Shown: positions 6,691 through 45,000 of the stretch, piece by piece | How positions within the stretch are numbered: the first letter of the stretch is position 1 | Layout of the letters: the number at the start of each line of letters is the position of its first letter | Source of the DNA: Apostichopus japonicus | Taxonomy: Eukaryota > Echinodermata > Holothuroidea > Aspidochirotida > Stichopodidae | Assembly (NCBI RefSeq): GCF_037975245.1 | Contig: NC_092561.1 | Location: 18,468,508 to 18,532,507 of the forward strand | DNA length: 64,000 nucleotides | Reading direction: 5' to 3' | Program-made: the position numbers and the translations under genes | The notes under the pieces: generated by a model | What the model was told of the DNA's origin: nothing | The model's database searches: none | What the model saw: only the letters and a program-made list of their open reading frames with translations

Positions 6691-7087
6691 TGTAACAATT
6701 GTTTAGTGGGCCAATTAACTGGTTCGTCGGGAATATAGACTACAAACAAGGTAGGAAAAGATACAAAAGTGTTGCATCCGATTATTTTACTTAAAAAAAT
6801 AGACTTCCAGCATAAACAGCATCAATCAAGTTCTGACAGATGTTTGTACAACTACACGATGTTTATACAACTACCGTTAAGTTCATGAGTCGCAGTAAGT
6901 TTTTTATTTTATTTTTATTTTAATATTCGAAACAACCTATCGAATTGCATCTAAATCAAAGCTTGTCAAATATATATTCTTCATTACTCAGATAAGAACT
7001 CATACATTATGTAGAGTAGAACCTACCTTTATAGTGACAAATCCACATTTACTCAAGCTTCCAAAGCTTCAAAAGAATCGAAACTAT

Positions 7088-15398: not shown

Positions 15399-15769
15399 GG
15401 TAACAATTGCTTAGTTTGCCAGTTAACTGGTACGTCGGGAATATAAACTATAAACAAAGAAGGGAAAAGATACAAAAGTGTAGCATCCAATTATTTTACT
15501 TACAAAAACTGATATCTTGCATTAATAACATTAATCAAGTTCTACCAGATGTTGATACAACTACCGATAAGTTCATGAGTCGCAGTATGTTATTTTTTAA
15601 TTTTAACATTCGAAACAATCCTATCGAATTGCATCTAAACCAAGGCTTGTCAAATATATATTATTCATTACTCAGATAAGAATGCATACGTTATGTAGAG
15701 TGGGACCTACCTTTGAAGTGACAAATCCACATTACTCAAGCTTCCAAAGCTTCAAAAGAATCGAAACTA

Positions 15770-19804: not shown

Positions 19805-20790
19805 CTATCCGACATGCTCAGTGATTAACCTCCGCCACGTATCACGATCTTGCGCAAGGTTTATTGCTTCTTCGAAATTGTTAATATTAATGTCCTTGAA
19901 TTGCGATTTTATTTTTCCAAGCAATGTAGTCACGGGCCTTCCAACTGGTTTAGCAGTATGTCTCAGTGCTTCTCTTAAAGCAACCTTTGCTGGAGCGTCC
20001 TCTTGGAGTCTTGCTACATGACCGAAAAATCTCAATCTTCTATGTGCGACTATCGATGACCAAGGTGTTTGGTTGGTTTCGTTGAAGAGCTCATCATTTG
20101 ATAACCAATTATTATTGGTCCATCTAATGTTGAGAATATTTCGAAGTAGTCTCCTTTGAGAAGTGTCAATTTTGCGATCAAGATCCTTCGTTGTACCCCA
20201 CAGTTCGCAATTGTACAAAAAAATACTCTTTAATAAAGTCTCATAGATCCTAAGCTTAATTTTCCGGCTTATGTTTTTGCTTTTAAAAATGCTTGACAGT
20301 GTGTTGAAAGCACCGTTGGTTATACCAATTCTTCTGTTAATGTCTTCTTCGGTCCCCAGCAAGCTTCCAACATATTTACATTTCTTCCAACTGTCATTTC
20401 CTTTTCTTGTGATTGTAAATTTCTCAGTTTTTGTGCAATTGATTTTCAGATTTCTTACTGCCAGTTTGTCAGAGACTCGTTTTTCGATGTCTTGCAGTAT
20501 ATGCTGACCAGTTGATGCCCAAGAGATATCATCAGCGTATTGTTGGTCTACAGTGAAAAAAAGAATTAGTGGTGGTAGTGCTGTAATCATGATCAACTAA
20601 CTGCGATGGCAGGATAACTGCATCGATATCATTATCATCTGATTTCATAGAGTTGGCAAGATCAGTTATAAAAAAATAGTGCACTTGCACTATCTCCTTG
20701 TGGTGAACCAATGTTAGTGATAAAAGGAAGTCCTAGTTTGCCCTCTAATTTGACGGTGTATTCATGCCTTGCAAGGCGTTGTTATTGTTA
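19805..20790 (-). pseudogene. Broken LINE reverse transcriptase (ORF2-like)
   Basis: Minus-strand coding relic. From right to left it shows a GSPQGDSASALFF-type palm motif (about 20,720-20,680), then the catalytic YADD box (about 20,531-20,520), then thumb and C-terminal sequence to a stop at 19,805 (LRIYETLLKSIFLYNCELWG and RRLRFFGHVARL). At least two one-base indels in homopolymers (A runs at 20,670-20,676 and 20,556-20,562) break the frame, and the 5' part is missing. It is a dead, 5'-truncated copy. The preceding 19,320-19,800 holds its GC-rich 3' flank and unassigned sequence. Confidence 0.85.
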
Positions 20791-21035: not shown

Positions 21036-21086
21036 ATGGATGCTGATGGTCTCCCGCTAGTTGGACCAGGGGTCGATCTTTCTAAG
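21036..21086 (+). CDS. WASHC3: WASHC3 coding exon 1
   Basis: Encodes MDADGLPLVGPGVDLSK, the conserved N-terminus of the family. It ends in phase 0 and joins the phase-0 exon at 43,018, 21.9 kb away. Confidence 0.93.
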
Positions 21087-24000
21087 GTTTAGAGAGGATA
21101 ATCTTACAAACTAAATACTTGTTATGTTATTAGGCTTCTAAGTTCTAGGCTGTTGTAGATTACATGTTGTTATATACGTAAAGTGACTACATACAGTACT
21201 GTAGCATGGACACTGCGAAGTTCGGACACCTAAGCCTTGAAACAGACCAAAACTTCATCTTATGGTATAAATCACCTGAAAATATACTTGATATGGTGGG
21301 TTCATTTTGGAGAGAAAATAACTGTAGCTTCGTAGTTTTTCGTGAAATTGGCTCTTGCTGCAGCCGTAGGTTGTCATAAGCAAAAATTTATGATATTATA
21401 ACCTAGACTAGAGTTGACCTAGGCCTTACACCAACAGTCAGGTGCATAATAAAATTGGCAGTAGCTTAAAGAGTATCATTGAACTAGGAAGATTGGTTGT
21501 ATTGTATATAGCCTAGCCTAGGCCTAGCATAGTTTTGAAATATAGCCTATCCCACAGGAGCTCCCAATGTTTGCCACACAGAAATGTAGCATGACTGATG
21601 GTAGGCCTACGGTAGAATTGAAAAGACAGCTGTGATGAACAGCTTGCTTGAAGCAAGAAAAAAAACCTTCCCTAACTTGGCGCATGTGTTAAACTTACTG
21701 TAATTCAGCTAAATTGTTCCAATAATCCACATTAGTGTCTTCCTGTTTCACAATAAACAAACAAACAACAAAAATAACATAATTCAATACATTTCAGTAA
21801 ATTTTGTATTTCATCGTTTTTAAGGCATTGAAGACTCGCCCCAAACGGCGTGCCCCGCTCTGAAAAAGTTAACTTTACGTTGCCTGCAAGTGAAGTTTTC
21901 TTCTTGTCGCTACGAAATGTAGACAGTAATGAAAGTGATACCTCAATCTTTTATCTAGATCTAAAATGTCCATCACTGCTATGTACACTGTGTTGTGGGT
22001 ACCCTTACCAAACATGATGGCTTATTTAGGCTTCTGAATGCCTTCATTAAGGCTTCTGAATCCTTAAATAAGGATGTGAAGCCTTAAACTAAAGCTTCAT
22101 GACTATGAAGCCTTAAATTGAAGCCTAACAAGCATTCAGAATTAAGGCTTCATGAACTTGAATAAGGATGTGAAGCCTTAAATAAAGCTTCATGACTATG
22201 AAGCCTTAATTTGAAGCCTAACAAGCATTCAGAATAAGTATTCATGAATCCGAAGCCTTATTTTCTCACTTCTGTGAAGCCTAACAAGCAGTCAAATAAG
22301 GATTCATGAATTTGAAGCTCTATATTGACATTGCTGTGAAGCCTTACAAGTCCTCATGAGTTTGAAGCCTTATTTTGGCATTGCCATCGAAGCCTAACAA
22401 GCCATCAAAATAGGGATTCATGAATTTGAAGCTCTATTTTGACACTGCTGTGAAGCCTTACAAGTCCTCATGAGTTTGAAGCCTTATTTTGGCATTGCCA
22501 TCAAAGCCTAACAAGCAATCAAAATAAGGATTCATGAATTTGAAGGTTTATTTTGACATTGCGGTGAAGCGTGCACAAGCTTAATTCTTCATGAGTTTGA
22601 AGCTTAATTTTGGCATTACTATGAAGCCTAACAAGCAGTCAAAATAGGGATTCATGAATTATTTTTTTTTTAATATTGGCTATAGGCTGCATGCATTGGC
22701 TTTGGAGAATTGCCCAAGACTTTTGTAATGGACAGATCCTTGGTCATATACAATTCAGTGGACAAGCACATTCGAGATACTATAGGCATTTAAAGGAAGG
22801 CATGTACGCACGCTAGAAAAGAGTAACAACCGTCAAGGCCAAGACTACATTGGTACCCCCCTTTTACAGTGTCAGCTCCCTGGAGAGGCATTGGCTATGT
22901 GCAGTACTGATGCTAGCCAATTAGTGCAAATACCATTATATGAAAGAAGTATTCCTATATACTTAGCACTTACTGGACAATAAAGTGATGAAAAGCTTAA
23001 TGAATGGTAAAATATTTCCTGTGTAGCCATATACCATGAGTTAATTTTGACACGGAGATATCAACTAAAGCTGTTTAAATTATATACAATTGAATATTAT
23101 TGCTACACTGTCAAGGGAATGCCCTTCTGATCACTTTTTGTAATAAGTTTAACCCTACATCAGAATTCCAGTGAACATCAGTATGTATTAATTGGAACTC
23201 ATTACTCAAATAAAGAAAGCAGAGAAAGTAAACCATTGTTCTTAAGTGTTGTGATACAAGTGGAAACTGTTCTCCATCCATGGTGGCCAGGGTATCAGGG
23301 GATCCCTAGCTCTGTAGATGATTCATACAAATGACATATAAAAATCAATGTCCAGCCATGAAACTTATGATGATTTGTCAAGTACCATTCAATTTTATTG
23401 ATATTTCTCTCTATCAAATTAACAATGATGATGATTCAAAAACAAACAATTAACTGGTTTTGGAAGATAGTAGATACAATGAATTAGAAGGGAAAAAAGC
23501 TTGAGCTGCCCAAGAAACTACTAAAATGAGGGGATTTGTTAACAATTCCAAAATGGCATTCACTTCTCTAGATTCTTCTCTGGCATTCACTTCTCTAGGT
23601 TTATTCTGATTAAAAGTAGGATATGGTTTGCACCAATGGTGACCAATCATAACTTACCCAAACCTAACACAGGAACTATTTGGCAACATCGTGCTGGAGA
23701 GCTTATTTACAAAATAAATAAATAAACAAGAGGCATCAGTAAGGGCCAAGATATATATTTGTAGGGACCTGATTTATTCATGAACTTACGAGCTTCTTAC
23801 CAGGTTTAAGCAGTATATTGTTCCACATCAGATGCATCTTAATTAAAATTTACAATCATCGTAATTGGTAACTCATGAACCACTTTAAACTTTGAGGTCT
23901 TAAACTGCTACAACAACATCCACCATGTGGTTTCATTAGCCCCAAGGAACCATATTAGAAAAAAAAGCAAAACCTTCCCTTCTTGAGATATCATGTTAAC

Positions 24001-27000
24001 AAGCTGGGTATCACAAATGCACACACATGCATATACACACACATATGCCATCATGAATGCAAGTTGGTTACGATTATCATCGAAACCAAAAATCAGTGAG
24101 CTACTTTAATTTTACAGTATTTGTCATTATCACACCTATTTGGTATCTCACACAAATACATGTGCTATCATTATCCTCAATGTAAATACAACTACATAAT
24201 AATTGATCAAGTTTTATCACTTCCAAGTTTAGATCTTGAATCTGTGCTTTCTTGCTTCGGTGCATATACAGAAAAAATCAGTCCGGCATTTTAAATGTAG
24301 TGTTAGTCTTTATCACACCTATTTGGTATCTCACACACATACATGCTATCATTAACCTCAGTGTAAATACAACTACATAATAATTGATCAAGTTTTATCA
24401 CTTCCAAGTCTGGATCTTGGATTACCTCTTTGATATGATCTGTGCTTTCTTTTTGTTTCAATTTAAAGGGTTCAATGAAAGCTACACAAAGGTCACCTTC
24501 CCCTAAGATTGCAAAAAATTGTACAGAACCGTACTGTTGTGCAGCAGGCTCTGAATTTGTAACATACTTGACAACACTTTGATTTCTTCGTATTAGTTTC
24601 TTGTAAAATGAACCATAGACGAATGAATCTGTGTTCTGAATGAAAATTTTTAAAAAACATCTGACAGATAAATCTGTTACCTGAAACTTTCTCTTAATTG
24701 CTGAGGATTCCTCAAAAGTCAAAATCCTTCTATAAAGGGAACCGATCCTGTAAACAGAGTTTGTCAAGTGTTGCCATGTTGCATGAGTCCTTCCCATCAT
24801 GGACATAACACAGTTCTGCACTTCATAATTCAAGTCTAAAAAATTTTCTTCCAAAAGTGGAATGCTATGAATAAGACCAATGGTATTTATAACTTGTGTA
24901 TCAATACCCTGTGTACCATGCATATGCTGAACTAAAAAACCATTCAAATCTTCAAATATGAAGCAGTTATTCACAAAAAGAGGGCCGGTATAGCGAACAC
25001 ATCTCCCAAGATGTACTAGCTGGTGAACATTCATTGTGACATACCTTAAACTATATAAAGTTGGAAACTTTGTGACAAATTCTGCAAGACAGGTTTCAGC
25101 TATAAGAAAATCATTTTCATTTATTGAGTTTTGTGAGAGAAGAAACATAGCTCTTACCAGTAGGCAGAAATGAATGTAATAAACTGGTTGCAGAATATTT
25201 CTCAATATTGGAACCCCCCAGAAATACAAAAAGTTTCTATATTCAGATGCCTTCCAAAAAGCAATATCATCTAAGGAGCGAGGCACCCTAGTGATGGTAA
25301 TGGTTGGTTTAATTGCCTTTAGAAGGTTGCTCACTGTTTCCTTATACTGATAAAATGAAAACTCCTTACTTTTATGTTCCCTGGAAAACCAAAGTGTTAG
25401 CATTAGTTTCATGACACCGGAGCAAACACCATGCATGTAGTCAATTACAAATCCATCAATTATATTAAAATATTTCAGGTACACAAACCAAGAAGGACCT
25501 TTGACACCCTTGTCTGTTGAAACACTACGACCTGCTTTGATGTCATTCAAAATTTTGTGAACAGATGTCAGCACTGATTCCTTAGTTCGAGGGGGCCCAC
25601 TAAGATCACCAATTTGTGGAGGATAAACATGACAATTACCACCTGCTTCTGTTCTAAAATTTTCACCTTTTTGCAAACAATGCCAGCAACCATAACTACC
25701 ATTAAACTGAATGCTGTTTGCTACCAGGCTTTTTGCAGGCAAATCACATGTGCATGTTAATATTGTTGCTTTGCAAATAAACTTATTTCCAGTGAAGTCT
25801 TGAAACTCAACACCTTCCTCAAGTGATGTGATGTCATCGAAAAGTGGTTTCAGAAAACTCCACATTATTGGTTTCTTTGAAGAAATCCACATTCCATAAA
25901 AAAGTGTATTTTCCCTCAGTTTACGATCTTTAACAGGCAATTCATTGACAAGCAAATAAACAGGCCACAATGAAACTTTTGAACTTTTGAAAATAGACAC
26001 CCCATCTGTATTAATAGCAAAAGATAAATTGTTTGGATTACTAAGAAAACCCTGTTGCCACAAATTTTGGTACAATACCCCATCATAGACATCACTGACA
26101 ACACCTTTCTTTGATGATCTACAAAATCTATGATTCCTAACACTTTCTGTGAAAGATTTGCGATTAAATAAGACCTGCAGCTGTTTCACTAAACTGTAAA
26201 GAACAAAATATGACAAGCCTCCTGTAGCAGTCAAATCATTATTACAAAAGTGGTTTGGACAATGCTTCATATCTTTTTCAACATGTGCATAACAAAATGA
26301 ACAATAATACCTTATTTCAGGCATATACGTGTAAACGGAAAGGTACTTTCGAAGTGAATACAGTGATGTTGGACATTTATGATTATCTGGTAATAGTATG
26401 CCTATGATTGTAAGCAAATGGGTCATTGCCTCATCTGACACTTTGAACCTGATCATGAAAAGGCATAGTAATAACATGACGGCACCAAGACATTTTTTAG
26501 AACCAGGGAAATGTTCAACATTTAAGTTATTCTGCTCTTCATTATTTGAGAGTACTTCAGCTGATTGACTCATGCATACTTCTGCAAATTTCTCGGTTAA
26601 TATTTCAGCTGTTTCTGTAGTATCATCGCACAAATCCTCAAACTTCTCTTTTCTAATTACCTCTTGGAGATCATCAAACAAGGAATCCAGATCTGCATCA
26701 GTCCCAGGAACATACTCAGGGGGTGGTTGGTCATCGTTCTCATCTGTGAATATCTGCAACAGAATTTAATAAAAAATTAAAACATATTTTCAGCGTTTAA
26801 ATTTAGCGGTCGTCCAGGACGAAAAAGGCTACCCAATGTGTATACACTTCCCCAAAGCAACCTTGAAAATCAACATGCATCAACAATCACTTAATAATTT
26901 CTGATGTTTGTTAAAATCAGACACAAGAAAAGTCCTATTGAAAATACTGATCCTACAATGTGCCTACCACATTTAAACAATCTTTGCTTTAGTCAACACT

Positions 27001-30000
27001 AGTGGAAAAAGGTAAGGGCATGGAAATAAACACAAAATGTTTCAACTGTATAGAATCCATAAATTTGCTCAAAACAGTTTCTTATAAGAGTCTCAATCAA
27101 TTAAGTTACCTTTTTCCAAGGATAAATTACTATAGTTGTTACTTTGAAAAGTATCTGTTCGCTGTACAGTACAGTGCCATATTCCGGACTCAGACAACCA
27201 TTTGAAATTTCTTAAATTATACACTCATTTTATCGCATGAAGCTATCCTTCCATTACTTGCCAACCCATAAGATGCTTTATCCACTATAAACTGTTCAAT
27301 TTGTGATAAAAAAAAATGTGATTTTTGTTGGCTTTTCAAACTGAAACATTTTAAAAAGTAGAATGTTTGTACGTATGCCCAACTAGGCTTATATCATTTA
27401 GCCTTCAGAAAGAAAACAAGAATTGTCCTATTTTTTTAAAAAATACCTCATCTTGGATTCCAAAGATTTCAGTTTCATCTGAAGAGAGTGCATTCTCTGG
27501 CTGATCCGAGTCCCACTGCAAATAATAAATGAACATGACAGACGTTCATATTATAATAATTATATGCATCTATATCCTAAAATTGCAGGCCTTAAATTTC
27601 AAGAAGAACAAGTACCATTAATTGGCACATTTTACTGACAATATGAAATAGAGTTAACATTCCATTCAGCTATATTCCAACTTCTTACAATTATTGTGGG
27701 AGAACTTAGAGAAGCAACAGTCGGTCAGTCTAACTTGTTCTGGAAACTGAAGTAGCCAGCTAGGTGTACAATGGCATGTACTCTTAATAACAGGTAGGCT
27801 ACAACACTTCAAACAATTCAGTCTTTCTTTTATCCATAAACCTATTTTCAAACTAACTCTGGTATTGTTCCATCATGACTTCGCTATCTGACCTAAATTA
27901 AGCCTCTAGGCCTAGCCTAGGCTATTTTGAATTTCGTTTGGTGCAAATTTTTGAGCGCCAAAAAAAGGTAAAAACAAAGCAAATTGAATTCAAAATTGTA
28001 CTTTAATTTAATAATTTGAGCGAAAGTTGTTACAAGATGTCTGGAGTATACATCGATAAGGGGAAGTGAAGGTAGCGAACAAGTTATGAGCTTACATCCG
28101 GCGTACTAAACTACCAAAGCCTCTGCAGACATTAGCCTTGTAAGTTGTAGGCTACTAATACTTGCCTCTATTACTACTATTGGTATATAACGTTAGGCAT
28201 TCACATGGATAGGGTAGGCATACTTACAACCAAAGCAGTTAGCTGATCATCGGAATTTAACGGCATAGGCACCTTGGTTTTCCATTTGAGGTACGGACCT
28301 TTCCTTTTTCGAACAGCACCATGTTCCATTTAATCTCTGAGATTCTGATCCAACTTTTTAGTAGAAGTTAAAGTTGGTCTAGGCTATGTTAGGTGAAATC
28401 AACCGACTTCCAAACGAAGAAGTACTAAGTAGGCCTACGAGAATCTATCCAGGTATCGTACATAGCCTGCGCGGCCTGGATCAACTAAATACGGTTGCGA
28501 GCTGAAACTAAGATCACTGCGTGCTAGCTACCGTAGACGAGCACATACAGTGCAGCTATTCGCGACTTGTACGTATACTTACGTTTGATTTGGCGGTAAG
28601 TACAAAACACGTAGTGAAAATTCTTACGTCACTTTTTCCTTGTCATTGTTATGTAATAGTGCGTGTATCTAAAACGGCTATATACGGTGCGGCAATAATT
28701 AGCCGCTCGACAGCTAATTAGGGATTTCCTTTCAAAATAGCCAACAGTCTTTCACAAAAGAAAATCTATTATTTTATTATATACATTTAGTAAACTGAAG
28801 ATGTAAATGGGATATCAAGTTGCTGCGCAATAGTTGCGAGCTCGGGTTGGTTTTTTATAATAAAAAAGAAATGAAAGAGGCGGCAAAGAACAAAACTACA
28901 AAAATTATTACGTCATTCCGGTTGCTTTGATCAATTGCGCTGACAAAGCTATATCGGTATATGCCTAGTCTAGTATAACCTGTACGTCGGTTGGATAGTT
29001 CATATTGACAACACAATTACAAAGTTCAGCTATTTCAAGCATATTTAAATTATAAATCTTTTAAGAAGATGGAGGAAATGGATGTCTTCGTTTCAAAGGA
29101 AGAAGTGAAGGAGATTGCCAGAAAACTAAAAGCGGAACACGAAGAGGGCGACTGGATCGTCGTGTTTTATATAGAGGAAAGAGTATTTGGAATTGTCCCT
29201 TCTTCTACCATTAGTTTCCCCAACTTTCGGCATCAAAATGTTTCAATTGAAACTTTCCAAAAAGTGACAGCCAGATATGGTAGCACCGACCTAGAGGTCC
29301 TCTACTTTTACAGAGGTAGGTATAGACTTTATATAGCCTAGTAGAAGTTTAGTTAAGGCTACGAAAATATTTCTTGAACGGGGGCCTAGGCTAGGCCATT
29401 GGGCCCAACATTAATGTTAACGTTAGGCTAGGGTTAATCATGTATACTTTTCAAACTCAAAAGCCCTAAAAGAAAAGTTAGGATTAGCAAATTTATAGAT
29501 TGTTAGATTTGTTCCCCACTCTCAGACATCACACTAGGATAGTCAGAATTAGTAGTCCCTAGCTATAAGCTCATTTGACATGGGCCTACAGTAGGCTAGC
29601 CTTGCCGAAGTCAACTGAATCAATGTTAGGCTAGGCCCCTAGGCTAGGCCTAGAATTTTATTCAATTATGACCGCTACCCAAACAGGGAAGGAGAGGGCC
29701 TTGGCTAAGCCTATTTGATGCCTTGGCTAAGCCTATTTGATTTTTATAAGTTTCCTAATGTTACTTGCTAGGTTTCTGTCCTTCTACTACTACTATTACT
29801 AGTACTCGCCTAGCCTAGGGCAGGCGTCAAATTGCGAATATCTAGCTAATTTAGTACTAGGCCTAGCCTAGGCTGCGAAAAAAAAAACATTTTACAGGGG
29901 GTCAATAATAAAAATAATTATATTCTTGGCGACTACATTGCTTTAGATATTGTTCAAACCACCTTGGCTAATGACCTAGACTATGCCTAGGCCTAAGCCT

Positions 30001-33000
30001 ACGCTAACAAAAAACGTTGCATTCCGCATACCAAATGTGTCAGCGGAAAACACCGTTTTTGTCAGCGGCAATTATTTAGGCTAGGTGGACCGAGATGGGT
30101 AGAATTTGGGTGGACCAGGATAAAATTTGGATCCGAGACTGTAGACTCCGAGTCTCACTCTCATCTCAGAAGACAGGATAGCCTAGGCCCCTAGGCCTAG
30201 AATTAGGTTAGGCCTGGGCTAGGCCTAGGTTCGGAATGATGATTTTGGCCTAGCCTAGGCCTACATCATTTAGCCTAGCATAGGCTAGTATAAGTAGCGA
30301 AAGTGGGGGGGGGGGAGGATAGGCGTAATTACCCTATCGTAGTCGCTAAGAACCTGAATAAATTTGATTATGGGCCTCCTTTAAATTCGTTATGCCTCAG
30401 TGTAGTAGTAGTAATACAGTACTAGCCTAGGCCTACTAGTAGTACTAGGGGGCCCAGGCTACTGACCTTGCCTACTACTACTACTACTAGTACTACTCCT
30501 AGTTCTAGTACTACTACTAGACTTTATACTTCTTTGTTTGTTCTTGCCTTAGGCACAAGTGACGAAAAGATGGAGTCTTTTGCAAAAGAGCTAGATAAAA
30601 CAAGGAGAATAAACAAGAGGCAGCCAACAAACAACACACAAACCAAACGAGTCAGAAAGAAAAAACAATTTGCAGAGTATGAAGTATGCCTAACAGAAGG
30701 TCAAAGCGGTAAGAAAGTTTTCCTTCAAAGTTCTAATCAAACTAACTCGGGGAGGGGGGGGGGATCGGAACTCATAAGTAGAAAAGAGGATCAGGAGGGA
30801 CAATCAAGTTCCTATCAAGCCCCTAGGCCTATGCGGGAGAAGAAGAAAAAAACGAAGACACAAAAAGTCATACCCGATTACAATGCTTAAAGTACTTGTC
30901 CAAAGCATTTTTAAGGCCGTGGCTATTCTTACAACTAGTAACAATTATTTATAAACTATTCTTACTAGGCCTAGGCCTAGCCTACTTGCAAGAACAATTT
31001 TCTCAGCCAAGCCATTCCATTCACAACCCTATAGGCCTAGTATTTGAAAAAAAGTTATGCCGAATATTAAACCTACTTTGTAACTTCTGGAGTTGAAGAC
31101 AATGACTTCTGGAGTCTGGTACAACTACTTTTAGCAAACCTTAAAAAGAATAGTACAGCTAGCGCTAGCGTCTCTAGCCTAGGCTATATAGGCCTAGGCT
31201 AGGCCTATAAAAAAAATAATAAACTTAAAAATACTTTTTTACCACGACTCACGAGAACAATTCCATTTGTGCATTGTCCATAACTTTACTTGAATAAGTC
31301 ACTATAGTAAATTATCAGTGACAGTACTAGTAGGCCTATATAGCCTAGGCCTAGTAAATACTGATTCGGCCTAGGCTACATTGCTACAGTACACTAGCTA
31401 AAGTGCTAGAACTACTTACTAATACTATTAGTACTTTAGTAGTAGTACGTTTAGTATTTGCCTAGGCTAGGTAGCAGTATAGTCACCAGTCGAAGCAAAT
31501 GTGTCCAAATGTTCGTTCTCGTGAATGCATGTGTTGCACTTATATCCTGAAACAAAACTAACAAGTCATAATCACAGACATTGTCATTAAGTTCGCCATT
31601 CCATTCGAAAATAATCCAAATAAGTCCTTTGTAATTCCAGAAGTTTGACTTAAGAAATGAACGCAATCATGTGAAGAGACGTTATAAATATAAAACATGT
31701 GTCACGATATGCGTGCATTGCGCAAGCGCGCGTAAAATTGAACACCATGCGAGTTCATCATTGCATAAAAGTGTAACGTAGAGCGCGCGTTTAACTATGT
31801 TACATGAAGTTGATGTTGTTTACGTGAATAGTTGTGCGCGCGTAAAATTGAACACCATGCGAGTTCATCATTGCATAAAAGTGTAACGTAGAGCGCGCGT
31901 TTAACTATGTTACATGAAGTTGATGTTGTTTACGTGAATAGCTGTGTTTATATCTAGACATCGGCAGCTTTGAAACTTTTTGTATATTGATCTATCGAAG
32001 TCGGAATGATACAAATGAACATAATTGTTACCAATTAGGTTTGTTGATAGTGCTAGTAGTAGCTATATGATCGTAATCTTGCAATCTAATTACATGTTTC
32101 AGGATTAATGATGGCTAAATATGATTTACTGGCGAGCAATAAATAAAGGCGGGGGGGGGGGGGTGTAAGTTGTATATGCAGTTGTAAGATTTTTTTATCG
32201 TTTAGGGGTTAATCTCGATTAATGTCAAACCACTAATCCATCAACTGAAGCAGAAAACACATGTTTGTCGTAGGCTCAAGGGCGGCGAAACCGGGGGGGG
32301 GGGCACGTGCCCCCCCCCCATTTTCCTCAGGTTAAAAATGTGCTCTTTTTCTACATAAAAATTTCTAAATAAAAAAAGAGTTTACAAAGCGAAACCCACG
32401 TCGAATGAAATATTTCGGGAAGTTTTAAATGTTTACTACCACAGGCATAGGAGCCCAATTTGATTGGGGGGGGGGGGGGGGGCTTTAACGACTTACTCGA
32501 AAAATATTACCAAAATTTTTCGCGCACTACGCGGGCGTTCAACATGTTAATGTGCATATCATATAGGCATGCGTTGGTTATTACATCGCATGCCAATAAC
32601 ATACATCATTTGCCGTGTTATAACCCTTCCAAATTGGTTATAATTATTCGGAAAGTCGTTACAATAATAATGATCATAATATTATCAGTTTAACCATTGA
32701 AAAACACATAGAAAATTATTTTTCTTTCAGTATTTTGACATATTTCATTTGCTTTCGTGCATGTATCGATCGCGTGTGCAGGGACTTGCACTTTATAATG
32801 ATTTCACCTCATTTTGTCTTTTTCCTTGTTTCCCAATTTGCACATTAGATATTGCAGTGCTAGTATGCATTGTTTCCTTGCGGAGGGGGGGGGGGGGTGG
32901 CGTTCATGGAGTGATGCGTATACGCAAATAAGATAATACAATAAGAGTTATAAAGGGTACTAAATATCAGGCTGCATCAGTCCAATCGAATTTCTGCAAA

Positions 33001-36000
33001 GTGCCCTTCGACGTTGGTGCCCCCCCCCCCCCTCCAGATTAAAAGTGCTTCCGCCGCCCTTGCGTAGGCTAGGTGCCCTTTCTTTTAACAATTCCCCCCC
33101 CCCCCTGTGTGGTTCAAATCACGCACCACCGCAAAAAAAAAAAGGATTAGGCCTATATCGGTAAGAAATACTCAGAAGTTAAAACCTGCAATCCATCGCC
33201 ACGGCAACGGTGAACGTAAAGTACTACATTCCCTCTTCAAGATATAGCACATACTTTCCAAATCACAGTCGATTTTCGGCTAATTGAAAGTTGTAAACAA
33301 GGCTACGAAAAGTGTGATCCCCCCCCCCCACCCCAAACATATGGTTAGGCTCGATTTCCAATTGACTCAGTGTGGTGTTAGGCTATACCATGTGGTTCGA
33401 GATCGAGATACAATTGAACGTTTTCGGTGGGAATTTAGTGGAAGATATACTGCAATAGCATGTAGCCTGGATTGGGGGTAGAGCAACTGCTCATATCAGG
33501 GAATTGATAATGTACTACATGCTACAGTAGTTTGTTCAACAACATCGACTAAATTTTGGCTAGTAGACTAGGCGTTGCCAAACTTTTATGTTCGATCTTT
33601 AATTTTTTAATATGAGTTTACAAACGCTGTGGCACAATTATTTTCATCAAGTAACAGTAGATGTATACTGTTTTACAGGTACATCAAAGTTTGTGCAAGG
33701 TTTGACATGTTCAAGGAACATACACTCATGTTTGTACTGCGTGGTTTGAACAATGCATTTGGCGTTGGTATATTTGACTCTTTGCGTGCACGCGTATGAC
33801 GGGTTTGTAATTCTGAAGTCGGAGGGTAAAGTTCGAAGGTTTAGACAAAACGCAATTTATTCCTTTCAAATTACTAAAGCATGGAATGCTACAAATATCA
33901 AAATCATTGATAGATAAAAGTTACCGCGATAATACAAAATTTTTCGATATATCGCCCAAGACTACTCCTCCCCCCTCCCCCTAAACAAACTATTGGTTCA
34001 ACTATTGAGATATATTCCAGCAGGTACATGGTTGGTGGCAACGGCTCAATCCTTACATACTTATTTGTTTAAACATTCATTTCTCGAAACAAACAAAAAA
34101 CTGTCGATGACCCATTTTTCTCCCGTTTCAATCGTTTCAATTTTCAGGCAAATCGTAAACTGTTCCCCCCCCCCAAAAAAAAAAAAAACAACAACAACAA
34201 CAACTTAGGCTTACATGATATTGATTATAGCTAAACAAAGAAGGAAAGCTATATGGGGAATTAAATTAAAATAAAAACAACCAACATAACTTCTTTTAAA
34301 AATTGTACTTTTTATTGAAGAATGAAACCATTTCAAATGCCTCAGCTCCACAGCAAAAAGAGAACACAAGTCTTCCAGCTCCAGCTCAGAGGAGCAAAAA
34401 ACTGAAGAAAGATGTCAGAAAAACTGCACCAGCCATTAACAACGAACCGGACGTAAGAAACATGGCAATGATGGCTGGATTCTCAGGGTTGATGGATGCC
34501 ATCCATCCACTTTCTACATTGGAACCATCCAGCCAACTGGAGTCCCTATCCTCTCTGCTTGCCGAAAGCAGAGAGGAACTAGAGGGACTGGAGACTCAGT
34601 CGGAAAAGATAAGAAGGTTGGAGGCGCAGCTTGAAGTTGAAAAATCAAAAGTCTTGGAGCTGCAGTTAAAGCTGATTGAGAAGGGTATGTGTTTATCAAC
34701 CTATCACTGGTATTTCTTTTCTGCTTCAACCCCAATTATCAGATAGTATGCTAATGTTACATGCTTTTCTCTATTTCTGATGCAGAGCAAATACCAGATG
34801 ATGTGAAGTTCCACATATCTGCATTGATGGAATTGTTGAGCAAGTTCCAGTGTCAAGGTGCAAGCAAATCCTCATTTGAAAGACTAAGCAAATCAGACAC
34901 TGTTGTTAATTGTTACAATCCCAGCGTTAAAGATGCAGATCTTCCCACTTCGCCACTGCAATGCCCACTCCCACTGACGCCACCAGATTTGCCATCTACT
35001 TCACAACCAGTACTACCACCAGCACAAAAAGTGTCAGCAAAATCACAAGTTAGTAGAATTACTAGAAACAGCATTACAATTTACCTAAAGATGCTCAACT
35101 TAAGCTTGTAGTCTCACCATTGATAGTTTTTGACACAATTGATGTTTGTTCTCAAGATAAGTTCTAGTTATTCGTCACTGTTGTCATCCTCTTCTGAACA
35201 AACATGTTCCATATCCAAACCTAACTTTGGACCTAACTACCATTCTATTCTCATTACCATATCAATATCTAAATTGTGAAGCTTTATGTTCAATTTAATT
35301 TTCAGCCACTAATAGTCGACCCAAAGAACAACGGCCGATTCGCAAGTGTAAAAGTGGACACGTATAAATTGTATCAGCTGGAGCAGTATGCTGTGAAGAA
35401 GAACAATCCCTACCACCTGCTAAATGGAATTATAAAATTAGTATTTTCTCAGTTGGAGCTGGCGTCGTGTTCCGGTTTGGGGCTCCGAACAAATGGAAGT
35501 GGAACAGCAGGCCCCAACCCTCTGGAGCAAGTCAAAGTTCTGGCGACAAAAGGTTAGACTTCATAACCTAAAGTTTATCACATTGTCTGGCACGCTGACC
35601 TGTCCACACCACAGCTATCAGTTCAAGCGCATGCGACTTTTCTTTTTTTCTCCAGTGTACGGCGAATCCCATCCGACTGGTATATACATTTCTAAAACGC
35701 AACAGCAGGACCCAGGGGTTAGAGAATGTCCCTTCTTTTGAGAGCTGTAAAAAGAAAAAGGGCAAACCAATGACTAGTGAATTACCAAGTTCATTGAAAA
35801 TGCTAGCCCTGTTCGCAGCCTCAGCTCTCCTGAATGATCTAGTAATCAAAACAAATAACGGTTTTGCTTTACTAAGTATTTACATTATTAAAGGAATGCT
35901 CCTTGTGCCTATAAGAGAAAGATATTTATTCCTGGCAATTACAAAAAGGCATCAGGTCATGCCAGCCTTACATTATGAGGCCAAGGGCCTCAGTTGATTC

Positions 36001-39000
36001 CATTTTTGGCTCACAGTCTTTTTGGTTTTGGAACGACTGGGAGCCATTTTTCTTGTTAACAAGTGGCACAAATGCACATTTTACTTAATGCAACTCTTCT
36101 TATGTAAAACAGACTCTCATGTGTCCTTTTGTATGTACCAAACCACCTCTGGGGTTTTGCAGGAAGAAAAGGAAGAGATTTACTACAAATTTCCAAAGTA
36201 AAAAAATATTGACATCCTACCAAGAAACCATGTACCGTAACTATTTATGTTTATGTAGCAAATGGCCTAACCGCTTGATTGTGTATGAAATCCATGTTAC
36301 CTGGTAATGCACTAAGAAAAGTTACTCAAAATATCCATCTTAAAAAGCATCTCAGAAAAATCATCCATCTTCAATCTTCACCAAAATGTATATTTTAATT
36401 ACCTATTCCTTACATTCCGTCATTATTTTGTACTTATGTTCAGTTTTATTCCGTTTATGAAGAAATAAACATGTAACGAACTTGATGTTAAACATCCTTG
36501 TTCGTTACTCCATTCAAGTTCAATTAGAAAATGTAAGCTTAGGCCAATCAAACTGCATCATCGTAACTTGTCTAGAATTAAAGTAGAACAATACCAGATT
36601 GATTTAAAGAAATCACAACGACTAAACCCTTCTCCAATACTGTTTTTTAACATGAAAAATTTGCATTTACTCATGCATCATTAATTTGAGCTAAATTACA
36701 AGCCATATTTCGAGGCCTGTTCTAAATGTTACAACCTAACGTTAGGCCTACTGTAATTAACGCGACGGCTAGGGATCCGACTCCGTTGCATTTTTGCCGT
36801 ACCACTATAAATTATTTCTTAAGGGCATTGCAGCAAACCTGAGTTTTCTTTTTAAGTTGTTGGTTTCCTAATAGATTAAGTTGCTTGAAATCGATCGATT
36901 AACGTTCGCAAATTTTTGCGTTTAAACGATCATGTGCTGTATTTTCTACAAGGTCACGCACAGCCCTGCCCTAAAGAAGTAGGCCTAGTACTGCAAGTGT
37001 TAGCCTAGGCTTCTTACTGTAATACTAGTGTTACTGTAAAGCTATATGTAATTTCGTAAGACAGTTGACCAATCGTGCATAACTTACTGCAAATGTTACA
37101 CTACCGTAGACTAGCCTAGGTCTGGGAGCCAAAACACCAGGTAAAATACTTGTAATAAAACCTCAGAAACTTTTAACAAATCTTAATTTGCAATAATATG
37201 AATAGAAAAAATTATTACCTCAGACATTATTGATCACGAAAGGGACTCGGTACGCCATAATAATGCAAATTGAATTGTTGTTGATCTTATGACAAAGGCT
37301 CCTTGTTGCATGAACAGGCACTCGTAACGTTATGTAGGTGTATAGTATATAAACACGTGTTTATATAATATACACCTACATAACGTTACGAGTGCCTGTG
37401 GTTGCATGTAGCATATCAGCGGTTACGAATTGTCTACTTCGGCTTCGCTACGCAAAAAAGAATGTTTCAACTCAAGTGTGCCGTGTGCCCAACCCTAAAA
37501 GGAATGGACACCCTTGGGAGTCGATGTTGCATGAAAAAAAAAATGAAGGGGTGCCTCCGGTCGATCCTCCCATTGAAAACATGTAATTAGAACCGTCCAT
37601 CTGGCGTCAGATTTAAGTCGGAAGTAGGAGTTTTTTTTTTAAATAGTCTGTTCCACCTCGGATGAACCGACACTCGACCTTTATCCGCAGTGGCGTAGGG
37701 AGGTACTTTTGAGTGGGGGGGGGGGGGCTGAAGACTGATGGCCAGCCTGGGGGAGGGGTCTAAGGAAATTTTTTGCATTTCCAGGTGGCCTCAGATGCAA
37801 TTTGGTGCAATATAGCACACTTCAACACCCACTCCATTTTGTAAACTTAATTTTGTATTTTCACCTGGCCTTAGATGCAATTTGGTGCTCCAAATGAGAT
37901 TTTTTTTCTCATTTGGAAATGAAAAAGGGGTTTTATGACTTGCGAACAGGGGGGGGGCGGAATAATACTTCCGCCCCTCCACATTTTTCACTGGGGGGCT
38001 GGCACCCCCCAGCCCCCCCCCCCCCGGTTCCTACACCCTTGTTTATCCGTCTAGTAGGACCATAATCTGACGAATTCATCACATTCAAAGAAACTTTTTG
38101 AGAAGGGAATGGGTTAAAAAGAGTTAAAGGTATGCTCTATATTGGACCCAAATAAGCCAGATTTCCAAATATACATCACCTTAATTTGGTCCAAATTAAT
38201 TCTTCAACTGTTTATCACCCCCTTGGAGGAAGTTTACCTCATTGGGACTTTCGGTCATCTTGTGTGCATGCATGTTCATTAAGAACGTCTGAGAACAATT
38301 TTGAAAGTACAGACCTCCATGCAGGAAATTACTTTTTGAAAACTTCTAGCAATTAAAGCTTGCCATCATTTGGGGCATATACAGACTACCTTTAAGTCTA
38401 CTCAATTACACACAGTTTTGACATGTTTGCTTCATTTTTTTTAATTCTACGGACTGTATATTCTGTTTTTTTTTCCTTGCAGAGTACATGCGATCAGCAT
38501 TAAAGAAATATAACTGGACGCCCATAGACGAGAAGGACATAAACCGAAAATTTACTTGTCAAATTACTAATGCCCGGAGGGATCTGAAAATTTTGAAATA
38601 GACTTAATTGACAATTTAAAATCATCATAATCATATATCCTGTTCATGTCGGCTGTTTCTATCTTCTTTTTATTGTTGCAATTTGGCTGTTTTGTATTTT
38701 TTTGACGGAGATGCAATTTTTAAACTCTTTCACAACTTTTTTTTCTATTACGTATGCTGATGCCTAAAATTAGCTCTGCACTTCAGAGAAAACGTATGCA
38801 AATTTAAGGAACATCCCTCTATCGTCCATTTACTTGAAATCATAATGGTAGTCTGACAATTTGGCTATATGCTATAATTGACTATATTATAATAGCTGGT
38901 GTGAATTTTGGGCAGATTCATCTTGATGCATGCAGGTTCATACAGGAAGTAAATATGCATTACACATTCAGGACAATATTATCCATTGCTTTTGTAAATA

Positions 39001-42000
39001 AAATTTTCCTTCTACCCGTCCTATACAACAAACCATGCAGGACTGATATATCTATAGGCTACTCAATGCATTTTCTTATTGTATTGAAGTTACAGTATGT
39101 GTGATGCGGATTTCACGTAAGATCTATTAATAGGATAATTTGGAACGCTAGTTTTATGGAGCATGGTTTAACGTTGCTCATAATGGATTCGCTTCTGGTG
39201 TGATACAAATAAAACATGGCATACAGAAGGTAAGGTAAGTTTGGTATAAGGGAGAAAAGTAAGCCTAAAGTAGAAAAGAAATGACAGAATTCTTTTTATT
39301 CAGGAGAAGACATGTTTGATTTTCATGTCGAAAATTTCAGTCTTGTCTTGACTGCATTTTAGGACCTACACTAACTTTATGCCAAGAATGTGATAGCTGT
39401 GCACTATATCCAGTAGCCCGTAAGTAATGTGTTAGTTTAGTTTAGTAGAAAAAAGGAGCAGGAGGGACAATCACGGCCCTATCAAGGACCCTATGGAGGG
39501 AGGGGGAAAAAACCGAAGACACTAAAAGTCATACCCGATTACAATGCTTAAAGTACTTGTCCAAAGCATTCTTAAACCCATTCACACTACTAGCAAGTAG
39601 CTGACTGCATGGACCCACATTCCCCTAAAAGGCTATATTAATAAAACACTGCAGTGAGCTAGCTGCTAGCTCATTCCAACTGTTGTGTTTGTGATTTCAT
39701 GTCAATATTATATTATAGGAATTTCTGTAATGTATGTCATACACTGATAAACTCTTTGGTTTTCAAATTTCATTCACAATTGTTTCTCAATAATGATGAT
39801 TAAGATTTTGTTGAATTAAAGTGTTCTTCTTACAGAAATAATATAAATCGTTTCTTCATCATTTCATGTGTGGGGTGAAGAGGCATTCATGAATGCATGG
39901 GACGGATAGATTCCTAGTAAAGTCATTCAAGCGATTGCTACGGGTTGGGAGGGGGGCCGGAGAATTGGAAGGGACCTATACAAAATAGCTGTCAAACCAA
40001 ATAATGTGAGGTGCATACAACTAATTTGCTTCATGATATAATTAAGCTAAAGAAGGTAATTTAAGGTTGTTTTAAGTCAATTTAATCGCAAGGTTAAACC
40101 CTACAGTGTTGGGTGGGAAGCGTATATGTACGGTCGAGTCAATCATGAGGAAAACTGAAATGCCTTCACTATAAATCTTCAAAACAATTTCATCAATTTA
40201 AGGCTTCACAGTGAATACCAATATGCAAATTTAAGCCATCAAAGCCTATGCACTTTTTTTGGCTAGATCTGATGCAGCCATACACCGAAGCCTTAGTGAA
40301 GGCATTCTTGGGGCAAATATAAGCCATCATTTATAAGCATTCGAAGCTTTAATGAAGCCTTAATGAAGCCTTCATTTTAGGCTTCAGGGCAAATTTATGC
40401 TAGCATTAAGGCTGCAGAGCGAATGCCTATTTAAAGCTTCAAAGTGAATACTTATATGCAAATTTAAGCCATCGAAGCCTTAGCTAATTTAAATTTTTCG
40501 GCTCTGGTGCAGCCTTAGCGAAGCCTTAGCGAAGCCTTAGCGAAGGCATTCTTGGGGCAAATATAAGCCATCATTTATAAGCATTCGAAGCTTTAATGAA
40601 GCCTTAATGAATGCATTCATGTTTGGTAAGGGTATTGACCGTAGCTGTATGTATTGACTGCACACTAGTGTCTTATCACCGACGACGGTAGCAAGCTGTG
40701 TCTACAGGTATTTTGTAGGATCGATGGTGGTGTCTAACATTTCTGTTACACCTCATTCGAAACTAGGTCAGAATACCAGCATGAGACGTTTCTTTGTGCG
40801 CGAGTCTTCACACCCTTTCACAAACTAAGGTTATTGTTGAATATTAGTCCCACTTATTAGCTTGGTGGACTGGTGGTAATCTGGTGGAGACCAGGGTGGG
40901 AATTTTACGGTACGCCGGTACGCTAGCGTACTGGAATGAAAATATGGCTTACCAAAATAAGAAAATCAAATAGGCCTAGTACCACACACCCTTGTAATGA
41001 GCGTACCAAAAATTCTGACCGTAAGTGACTGCATCGGACTGTAGTAGGCTTATCTGCAATCTGTTTCTAAGTTACGGAGGATTAATTTGTCGCGCAATTA
41101 GCAAAAAGCACCAACGAACTGGCCGCACACAGCTGGCTGCTAGCTCGGCGATCGTGCCTTGACCGTCACATACCTACGACTAACTGTGTATGCATCGCAA
41201 TTTATTCCAACTTCACACATGAACTACGCAATTGCCGACGGCAATTGCGTAGTTCATACTGTACATGTGCTCAGAATTTTCCCAGGTACCCTGCCAAACA
41301 ACTGTGCGCTCATCCCCTGTCTAACACCTGTTTGTTAACATTTTTGGCACATTTCCAAGAAACGTTTCATGGAGTATTCCCCATGATACACGAGGCACAG
41401 TTCATACACGCAGCACAAGATATCAAGTAATGGCCATCTTTATGAAAGTAAACCTTGTAATAAAATATGTTTTAGGCCACACGGCATGATTAACTAATGC
41501 TTAAAATTATTTCTATGTTCTTGTAGAAAACGTCAAGTTCACAAAATACAAATAGTTGTGTTTTTGTAGTTACGTGAGATTCGTAACAGACGAGGTGGTT
41601 AGGCTATTTGCTATTCACTTAACTATAGTAGGACATTATTTTTTCCGTATTTTTGGAAACTCTAGAAAATACTTTCTTTTCCCCCCGCTTAACACCAGAT
41701 GTGGTCTTACAGTACAGGTTATTCATAAATGGGTGTACTACTGTAGAGCCTTGTTTACATGACATTAGTTGCATGTAGCACGATATGCCAGTTTTGCGTG
41801 AAGTTTTCGAAAGTGTTTTGCTGGATCTTCCGTAAAATTTTAAAGGACCGAACTTACTTTTTGTACACAGTTGGTAATTTCTCTACTGATTTTCAGAGTT
41901 TTTTTTTACAATCTCCAGTCGATTCATTTCCTTTGATCATGTATTTGAATAACTAATACCGGAGTATTCAACCAGGTACTGTCTGGTGGGAGAGTTCAAC

Positions 42001-45000
42001 GTGATGGACAGGGATTGTAATTATTTCGATCGAACATGCATTGACTGGATTATCTGCGCCGCCGCTGTCGGCTTGATATAAAGTACACTTGTGCCGCGAA
42101 TCAGGAAGTTTTCACAAAAAGAAAACAGCGTTCAGGTCATTGTGCTGTGCTTACCGATTCATGAATTGTGCTTACCAACTAAGAAATCTTGGCTCATGTT
42201 GGTAAGCACATTTCATCAAAAAATGAAAATATGCTTACCAACTTTTTTTGCCAAATTCCCACCCTGGTGGAGACGTGGACTAAAATGCAACAACTTATAA
42301 TGTAGCTATTAGACTCTCCCGCTGGACACAGTGTTCCAACTTTCGACCAAAGAAATATGGATTGTAACCCTAGAACTAGGAGGCAGGTGTACACACAGTA
42401 CCTGTTGTACCCATTCCTGCTCTGGTCACCACCATTTTACATCCCAATCCGATGGACAAGAGTGTCGCCTGCACTATCTGACCACTTTTTTCCAAATACT
42501 GAGGTCTGAGGTGAAGGTACAGTACCTCATTCATTGTCAGAGCAATGCAATGTTCATGGTGTCCGAGGAAGTCGTTTCAAAACCCCCTTATACCACATTC
42601 ATGGTAGACTGCGCTTAATGTTAACACCAGTTGCACAACAGCAGGTTTAGATTAGGTTTTGAACTTTATTATATTTACTGAGGATGGAATGGTTTATTTT
42701 AAGCAGATCTGTCAAAGTGAAGTGTCAATTTCAGTATTAACTTCAGCTAACATAGTGTAATTAACATCAATTAATTTACCTGTACATATTTAGCATAAAT
42801 TTACATCAAAACTTGCCCCCGTAGCACTGCACCAGTTTAAGCACCACATCACGCTACAAATTTCTTTCTCTCACGATTTTTTCACCTTCAATTGTTACAC
42901 TAGAACTTGCAGAGTTCAGACTATCCATTTTTTGATCACTAGTAGTGTCTTAGAAATATTTTTGTGTGTTTTGTATGAACTGACGAGGTACAAATTTATC
43001 TTTTGTTTCTTATACAGGTCACAGCTATACACCCTAAGAGGATGCTGGCATTTTTGAATCATTTCATTATCCATACCACAAGATTCCTTAACAAGTTTTC
43101 TTGTGTCTGTGAACAGGTAATATTTTGATTGTCATTTTTCTATGAACTGTATCACTAGGTTTGTTAGCCCATTGTTTGCAAGTTTGTCATGGTAACCTTT
43201 GTAAATCATTGAAAATAGCATAAATAATTTTACTTTAGAAATGCTTTTTTCAGACAAACTGGTAGCAGACGAAATCATAAGAGGATGGTAATTCCATAAC
43301 ACAGGTTAGGGAGTATCCAACGTACAATCAATTTCAAACAAAATACCTCAGAACAAATGTTGTTCAACATAACAATTAGATATCCAGTTTCTCTTTAACT
43401 AATTACTGTAGCAGTCTTAGCCTGACCTTTTCCTCTTGGTTCCTGTGCAGCAAAACTGCTATACATATTTGGATTCGTATGGTACTGTAGCAACTTCATG
43501 ATCCTGTATAGCATTTTGTGATGCAACACTGGATAAAGTACTCACAGGGCTTGCTAAATTTGCTATAAAAGGTTAAAAGCCCCAATCAATAAACTTCATA
43601 CAAATGTTTGAGACACAGGACAAAGTTGTCAATTTACATTTAATATTTATGATGATCACAAAAATGAGCTATGCAGTCACGTTTGATATTATCCACGGGC
43701 CACACAGTAAAGGCTGTTTTAGTCATCCCTGCAGTGTAATAAAAACAGGAATTTGTTCAATGACAGTATGCAGTGGTTGTGTATAGAATGATTTACTTTG
43801 GAGGAGAGATAATCTTTCTTATTGTGCAATCCATGAAATTAAAACATGCTCTTTGGTTTCAAAGCCCTTATTTTGCTAAATTCTGAAGAAGAACAAAATA
43901 TTCTAACAAGGAATGAAATTACAAAGTGACTGTGTGATTTAGATGTTACTTAAAGTGTGTAATAGTCTTGGGCAATGATATTAACTTACCTAAAACAATT
44001 TTTTTAATGTTGAATATTACAGTAAGTATATTGTTCAGTATCACAACTGAAGACCAGCTGTTGTGAAAGGTAGCACAGAGCAACTTGTTATTCCCAATTT
44101 CTCTTTTACACAAGATTATGGATTCTTTTGATTTTAATAATAATTATTTCACATAATTATTTCACTTGTCTTTTAGAAATTACTGGATTTGAATCATAGG
44201 ATACAGAAGCTGGAAGTGACAATGAACATTTTAGAAGCCAAGGTACTGTAGAGATTACATTATACGATTTTCTGAAATACTTTGTCTTCTTTGAAAAGAC
44301 ACATTATTCAAATGATATATATGGGCTTATAATTAGGGGTTAACTTATTACTGCCTAAAATAAGTAATTTTGATGAGCGCAACACTCCACGTCATAGCTT
44401 GTACATATTTAGTAAGTTTCCCAGATGTGTATATCTAAGGTGCATATCTTGGAAACAAAAGGAACTTTTCGAAAATTTTCAACAGATATTGAATGAGATT
44501 ATCACCCGCAACAAATGTATTGAATATGGGACAGGTTGGCTGGGTGTCCGTAGTACATTAACTGGTAGGTAGGGAAAAAGGTACAAAATTTTAATCCAAC
44601 CCACAAGATCCAGTCGTTCCTACCTTTCATTTAGATTAAATCAATCTTGGTCATTGTTGAATAATTCGCCAATTTCTTTTTTTTTGGGGGGGGAGGAAAT
44701 TTTTTGGGGGAGGTGGGGGGGAGGGGGAGCGAGGGGAGATATTTTAAGTTCAAGCCAACATTTACCTGCTAGTAAAAGAAATCGCAGTAATGTCATCATA
44801 CAGAAACTGACTGAACACTGTTGATTCTATAAAGTTTCGACAAGGATTGAGGATTTGGAGTACTAGAAAATATGCTAGCAATTTGGAGAGGCATTCATTA
44901 CATGGTATCATTCATAGTTAAATTCTATTTAGCAATAGCCCCATCTACTGGGTACTTTATAAATGCCTTGCTTAGCATAATCATATGACTTCCCAAACTC

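Follow-up and report, generated by a model that had tools for sequence, protein, structure and literature searches.

The first intron of WASHC3 in Apostichopus japonicus contains an interval with inverted ends and two genes, which raises the question of whether it is a single mobile unit and, if so, what its second gene does. The interval occupies positions 22002–40632 of the 64-kb stretch of DNA that was analyzed (the window, C1:18468508-18532507; positions are those within the window, and C numbers denote contigs of the same A. japonicus assembly). It is, in our assessment, probably a young cut-and-paste transposon that belongs to the CACTA (TRC/EnSpm, CMC) elements of animals. Of its two divergent genes, one encodes a BEN protein that would bind the ends of the element. 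Judging from its open reading frames, the element is probably autonomous. Direct observations are its boundaries, a 2-bp duplication, an empty site, two intact frames, and the recurrence of the plan in a second family of the same genome.

A preliminary description of the locus, made from the sequence alone, had reported perfect 16-bp inverted ends with TA at both flanks, and these were recovered exactly: the terminal inverted repeat CCCTTACCAAACATGA lies at 22002–22017 and its exact complement at 40617–40632. The inverted match grows to 18 bp (100%) once the flanking TA is counted, and a search for the 16-mer with up to three mismatches gave three matches in the 64 kb, two of them perfect (shuffle mean of 0.62 at the same tolerance). 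The second inverted block that had been pointed out was found at 22035–22056 and 40598–40619 (22 nt, 95%). The element lies within WASHC3 intron 1, as had been proposed, since WASHC3 matches are present on both sides of it and on one strand (plus strand, 21036–21089 and then 43003 to 47549; human WASHC3 as query).

When the left 659 bp and the right 493 bp were used as genome queries, 9 and 16 matches were obtained, respectively, window included, so the ends are found elsewhere in the genome and are not confined to this site. In all nine left ends the element starts at the same CCC, with the flanks TA, GA, AC, CT, TT, TA, AA, GC, and CT. The same dinucleotide is present on both sides in 7/7 copies with both ends read: TA in the window, GA in C5:4811159-4820354, CT in C8:40035125-40044431, AC in C8:6076171-6085323, TT in C9:36170904-36182273, TA in C5:2078005-2089375, and AA in C1:12044804-12064651. 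Unpaired left ends on C3 and C10 and unpaired right ends on C19, C2, C18, C5 (2.094 Mb), C16 (three places), and C11 are outside these seven; on C10 the right-end match covers query bases 2–470 only, and the right terminus was looked for there and not found. The flanking TA is thus a target duplication that varies between copies. That it forms part of the inverted end is ruled out, because other copies have GA, AC, CT, TT, AA, or GC there.

The empty site is a repeat on C8 (L016, reverse complement of 2650–3008) that is ∼88% identical to the window's two flanks, with one TA and no element. It is a paralogous site, and its single TA indicates that the insertion of 18,631 bp duplicated the TA. 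Together with the 2-bp duplications, this site upholds the earlier proposal of one mobile unit. It also bears on the idea that the unit is a chance composite, in which an unrelated gene was trapped with a transposase element between inverted ends. In favor of such a composite, the other copies that were read have the same ends and no match to either protein, but the empty site attests insertion in one piece, and the C17 family described below, which has the same plan, already contradicts it; we give this explanation almost no credence. The C8 repeat, which is kin of the window's target, lies ∼0.5 kb from another copy of this transposon, which may reflect coincidence or a preference for this target.

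One short copy, at C5:4.81 Mb, was compared with the window end to end. The two have only 22002–23438 and 39720–40632 in common, and neither the transposase frame nor the BEN protein has a match in the short copy. L016–L019 also part from the window at 23438, and the sequence that follows there is that of the C5 copy. Among these copies, identity of the left ends reaches 99.6%, which points to a recent spread, presumably in trans. The 19.8-kb copy C1:12044804-12064651 (L068), with the same ends and the AA duplication, contains a long open frame with reverse-transcriptase-like sequence, as judged by eye.

Between its target duplications, the element is organized as follows (strand in brackets, a dot where none applies).

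22000–22001 (.): TA, left copy of the 2-bp target duplication; single TA at the empty site, other dinucleotides in other copies
22002–22017 (+): left terminal inverted repeat CCCTTACCAAACATGA; exact 16-mer in 9/9 left ends examined
22018–22660 (.): left subterminal array of GAAGCCTTA words and TTCATGAA palindromes; word counts, inverted-repeat search
24303–26753 (−): transposase exon 3 (last); splice reading, Pfam, alignment, predicted structure
about 24786–26513 (−): transposase RAG1-like core; converted from model residues 85–660
about 24327–24761 (−): transposase BAH-like domain; converted from model residues 669–813
27447–27515 (−): transposase exon 2; splice reading
28228–28329 (−): transposase exon 1, 34 amino acids; identical protein stretch in RPC2-like gene models
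28330–29068 (.): 739-bp stretch between the divergent start codons, presumed to act as a shared promoter
29069–29315 (+): BEN-gene exon 1; splice reading, NCBI-predicted protein
30553–30708 (+): BEN-gene exon 2; same evidence
34346–34684 (+): BEN-gene exon 3; same evidence
34786–35048 (+): BEN-gene exon 4; same evidence
35306–35552 (+): BEN-gene exon 5, initial part of the BEN domain; same evidence and profile comparisons
38483–38601 (+): BEN-gene exon 6, remainder of the BEN domain, including the TNARR recognition-helix motif; splice reading, profile comparisons, NACC1 comparison
40141–40616 (.): right subterminal array of GAAGCCTTA words; word counts, inverted-repeat search
40617–40632 (−): right terminal inverted repeat; exact complement of CCCTTACCAAACATGA
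40633–40634 (.): TA, right copy of the target duplication; single TA at the empty site

The two open multi-exon genes of the preliminary description were both found to be in phase. The transposase gene (minus strand, exons 28228–28329, 27447–27515, and 24303–26753) encodes the TNP2 transposase that had been named there, with Pfam scores of 45.1 bits for PF02992 (cut-off 28.6) and 39.2 bits for PF06869 (cut-off 33.1). Residues D254, D341, C360/C363, H581/H585, and E605 are invariant in 48/48 aligned rows (the query and 47 of 102 relatives); by the known order of motifs, D254, D341, and E605 are assigned as the putative DDE triad, and the C(2)C and H(3)H motifs lie between the second D and E. 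Related transposases include P0005 of Diadema antillarum, P0012 of Lissotriton, and P0013 of Ambystoma. The predicted fold of residues 85–660 matches the RAG1 core and HzTransib, with sequence identity of ∼10%. Transib elements make longer target duplications, and to our knowledge no BEN partner has been described for Transib/RAG1. Residues 669–813 are predicted to adopt a BAH fold; BAH was absent among the 17 Pfam families listed for the 48 aligned rows at E up to 0.1. A comparison of the transposase sequence with PDB sequences gave 0 matches, and no relative was found in the viral contigs that were searched.

Animal TRC elements are described as having CCC termini, 2-bp duplications, and a Transposase_21 protein (PMC1636069). 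The window element has a Tnp2-type transposase, the DDE, C(2)C, and H(3-4)H arrangement, a duplication in the 2–3-bp range, and CCC termini (9/9 left ends, and the C17 family too). The CCC termini, 2-bp duplication, and Transposase_21 domain place it in the animal TRC group and not with plant-type CACTA elements; it has the subterminal arrays at both ends of the latter, but its termini are CCCTTACC and not CACTA. The earlier assignment to EnSpm/CACTA therefore holds for the animal branch of the class and not for canonical CACTA. SmTRC1, as presented in PMC1636069, is ∼4.7 kb long with 54-bp inverted repeats and one open reading frame, whereas the window element has 16-bp ends, long arrays, and a divergent BEN gene. 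Within the CMCT clade, the ESTA and Plavaka lineages have the same catalytic layout, including C(2)C and H(3-4)H, and make 2-bp or TA duplications, but they are described as fungal, with TGT or CATCA termini in Plavaka and a TET/JBP dioxygenase as the accessory gene (PMC12730594). The Pfam Plavaka model matches 12/48 of the aligned transposase rows.

The second gene (29069–38601, plus strand) has six exons with GT-AG introns and is open over 456 amino acids; its spliced protein agrees at 456/456 residues (100%) with an A. japonicus protein predicted by NCBI. Single-sequence searches were almost silent: Pfam listed no BEN match for the protein or its pieces, nor for the C17 pieces (HMMER filters drop weak matches), a protein database search by a method needing shared 5-residue words returned no relative other than the protein itself, residues 336–456 as a separate query gave 79 candidates but again only the BEN protein itself, and phmmer with the BEN region gave one match at E 1.3. 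The C-terminal exons were aligned with those of the C17 element (40% identical), and with the resulting two-sequence profile the BEN likeness became detectable. Among all PDB sequences, this profile had only two matches at E up to 10, both of them NACC1 BEN chains, with weak E values of 0.12 and 0.16. Against three solved BEN domains, hhalign gave 91.6% and a score of 41.1, whereas 200 column-shuffled BEN profiles scored at most 19.0; as a yardstick, NACC1 scores 24.6 against two other BEN domains. Given the profile comparison, shuffled controls, and PDB profile search, we reject the reading that takes the silence of Pfam for the absence of a BEN domain, and the BEN-domain gene of the preliminary description is supported. 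The best PDB match is NACC1; for the protein of the window element, Pfam lists no BTB match either. In the NACC1–DNA structure described in PMC11472053, R421, D462, and R469 contact bases, R429 and R468 contact the backbone, and T465 is named alongside R469. By eye, the alignments have four of these interface residues (R421, T465, R468, and R469) kept in both transposon BEN proteins, whereas D462 is replaced by C in the window and by Y in C17.

The subterminal arrays, which had been described as alike at both ends, are strongly enriched in common words. Counted in both orientations, GAAGCCT is found 17 times in the left 659 bp and 9 times in the right 492 bp, compared with a single occurrence in the 17,480 bp between the ends and six in the flanks (45,369 bp); the word never exceeded 3 occurrences in 300 first-order Markov simulations of the ends, in which 26 are observed. 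Within the window, GAAGCCTTA is confined to the ends, with 18 occurrences. The 9-mer ATTCATGAA, which is half of the palindrome ATTCATGAAT, has 10 occurrences in the ends when both strands are counted and 3 in the interior.

A second family is represented by C17:15309383-15323045 (13,663 bp), which starts with TA-CCCTTACCCAACACGAATA and ends with the complement (one mismatch) and TA. It contains an open transposase frame that is 50% identical to the window's and, at its right end and on the strand opposite the transposase, two BEN exons that are 40% and 38% identical to their window counterparts. Its ends have their own 9-mer, TATTCGAAT (26 on either strand), and the window words are rare there (GAAGCCT once in 1,400 bp, TCATGA none). 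The same gene pair, order, and strands in the two families imply that the plan is older than their split, while the arrays differ. This arrangement bears on whether the BEN gene was captured from the host and is a mere passenger, an idea that the absence of any other relative in the protein database would favor. We regard it as improbable, because the C17 family has the gene at the corresponding place and strand with ∼40% identity, so the association is old, and because a relative at C16:26.09 Mb adjoins transposase exon 1.

Further BEN-gene relatives were found on C16 (26.09–26.11, 29.93–29.94, and 30.56 Mb) and C12. The transposase exon 1 alongside the relative at C16:26.09 Mb has one silent difference in 102 bases. 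An open stretch at C16:26091188-26091334 (minus strand, locus L028) corresponds to the first 49 amino acids of the NCBI RPC2-like isoforms X4 and X8 (P0105 and P0106), and POLR3B exons run on from ∼26.072 Mb downward on the same strand; in the predicted POLR3B gene model, a transposon-family copy is thus the source of the first coding exon. POLR3B exon clusters occur on C16 at about 25.46–25.48, 25.94, 26.03–26.07, 27.23–27.25, and 27.36 Mb (within 2 Mb), and are likely a recent amplification.

The preliminary description had called for other copies with the same gene pair. The pair does recur in C17 within its own inverted ends, but the window holds the sole intact pair of its family found in the assembly, and this is one of several points that weigh against an autonomous element with an end-binding BEN protein. 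In-frame stops are present in the C17 BEN gene ahead of the expected donor site, so that this copy may be broken at the BEN gene, and inside exons of the relatives at C16:26.09–26.11, C16:29.93–29.94, and C12. Ratios of nonsynonymous to synonymous substitution rates (dN/dS) of the BEN gene against broken copies are 0.21–0.65 overall, which is weak evidence of constraint, and 1.05 for exon 4 against the C16:29.93 copy (the totals count overlapping loci repeatedly, with little effect on the ratios). The single-sequence BEN model is poor (mean predicted local distance difference test score, pLDDT, of 47.5), and the structural matches listed (Foldseek, VIA) included no BEN structure and were meaningless. 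NACC1 R400, R401, and R429 are not kept in the alignments read by eye, and the R429A mutation is reported to lower NACC1 binding to <5% (PMC11472053). Finally, CATG, the preferred word of NACC1, is enriched at one end alone, the left (12 in 659 bp, versus 2 in 492 bp on the right), and the C17 ends have hardly any (1 and 0 in 700 bp each).

The enrichment of CATG at the left end alone also favors a role for the BEN protein as the element's regulator or chromatin factor (a repressor, anti-silencing, or promoter factor) and not as an end-binding partner in transposition. This would accord with human BEN proteins, which are described as mostly chromatin and transcription factors, and with the 739-bp divergent promoter region common to both genes. 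However, the gene pair is kept in two families with differing arrays, an observation that fits an end binder too, and we consider a purely regulatory role rather unlikely.

In the reading that we favor, the RAG1-like DDE transposase would cut beside the CCC/GGG ends and join them to target strands 2 bp apart, while the BEN protein would bind the repeated words of the subterminal arrays and help to pair the ends. The 739 bp between the start codons would drive both genes, and the BEN protein may control them from there, much as TnpA acts on the promoter of maize En/Spm. Through its BAH-like domain, the transposase may be tethered to chromatin or a partner, and short copies with the same ends would move in trans. 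More tentatively, we propose that the BEN protein is the end-binding partner in this animal CACTA group and an independent counterpart of plant TnpA, that in each family the recognition helix of the BEN protein evolved in step with the family's subterminal word (GAAGCCTTA and ATTCATGAA for the window element, TATTCGAAT for C17), and that the transposase has a built-in BAH-type chromatin module.

Like plant En/Spm (CACTA; TnpA and TnpD), where two proteins are needed, the window element has a Tnp2-type transposase, a putative second protein, and subterminal repeats. TnpA binds the subterminal repeats of En/Spm, and the window element would work in this way only if the BEN protein binds the arrays. 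According to PMC1636069, TnpA also acts on the element's promoter, TnpD stabilizes TnpA binding, and the En/Spm proteins come from one alternatively spliced unit, unlike the two divergent genes of the window element. The window termini also differ in not being CACTA, with a duplication of 2 bp, and the likeness between TnpA and the BEN protein would be functional, with no kinship implied. In the open-licence literature, judged by title, we found no BEN partner of a CACTA/EnSpm transposase, no transposon-encoded BEN protein, and nothing on a BAH domain together with a CACTA transposase.

Other features were noted within and near the element. The last BEN-gene intron contains two adjoining 50-nt inverted arms that are 92% complementary and form a long hairpin (37307–37406), and a short repeat is present inside the element in two copies (30777–30914 and 39444–39575; pieces 88–96% identical). 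Outside it, a reverse-transcriptase fragment lies at 19805–20596 (minus strand; DUF6451 above and RVT_1 below the cut-off). To the left of WASHC3, two open 453-amino-acid frames of OAS/SMODS-like nucleotidyltransferases (5341–6702 and 14049–15410, minus strand; OAS1_C 50 and 49 bits) are separated by 8.7 kb and have similar surroundings; they may represent a tandem duplication of an innate-immunity gene.

In plants, CACTA elements depend on another protein in addition to the transposase, and the BEN protein is a candidate for its counterpart in animal CACTA elements. As two families in one genome each have their own BEN protein and array word, cross-binding is directly testable. If the proposal is true, it would add mobile DNA to the settings of the BEN and BAH modules, which in animals serve in chromatin.

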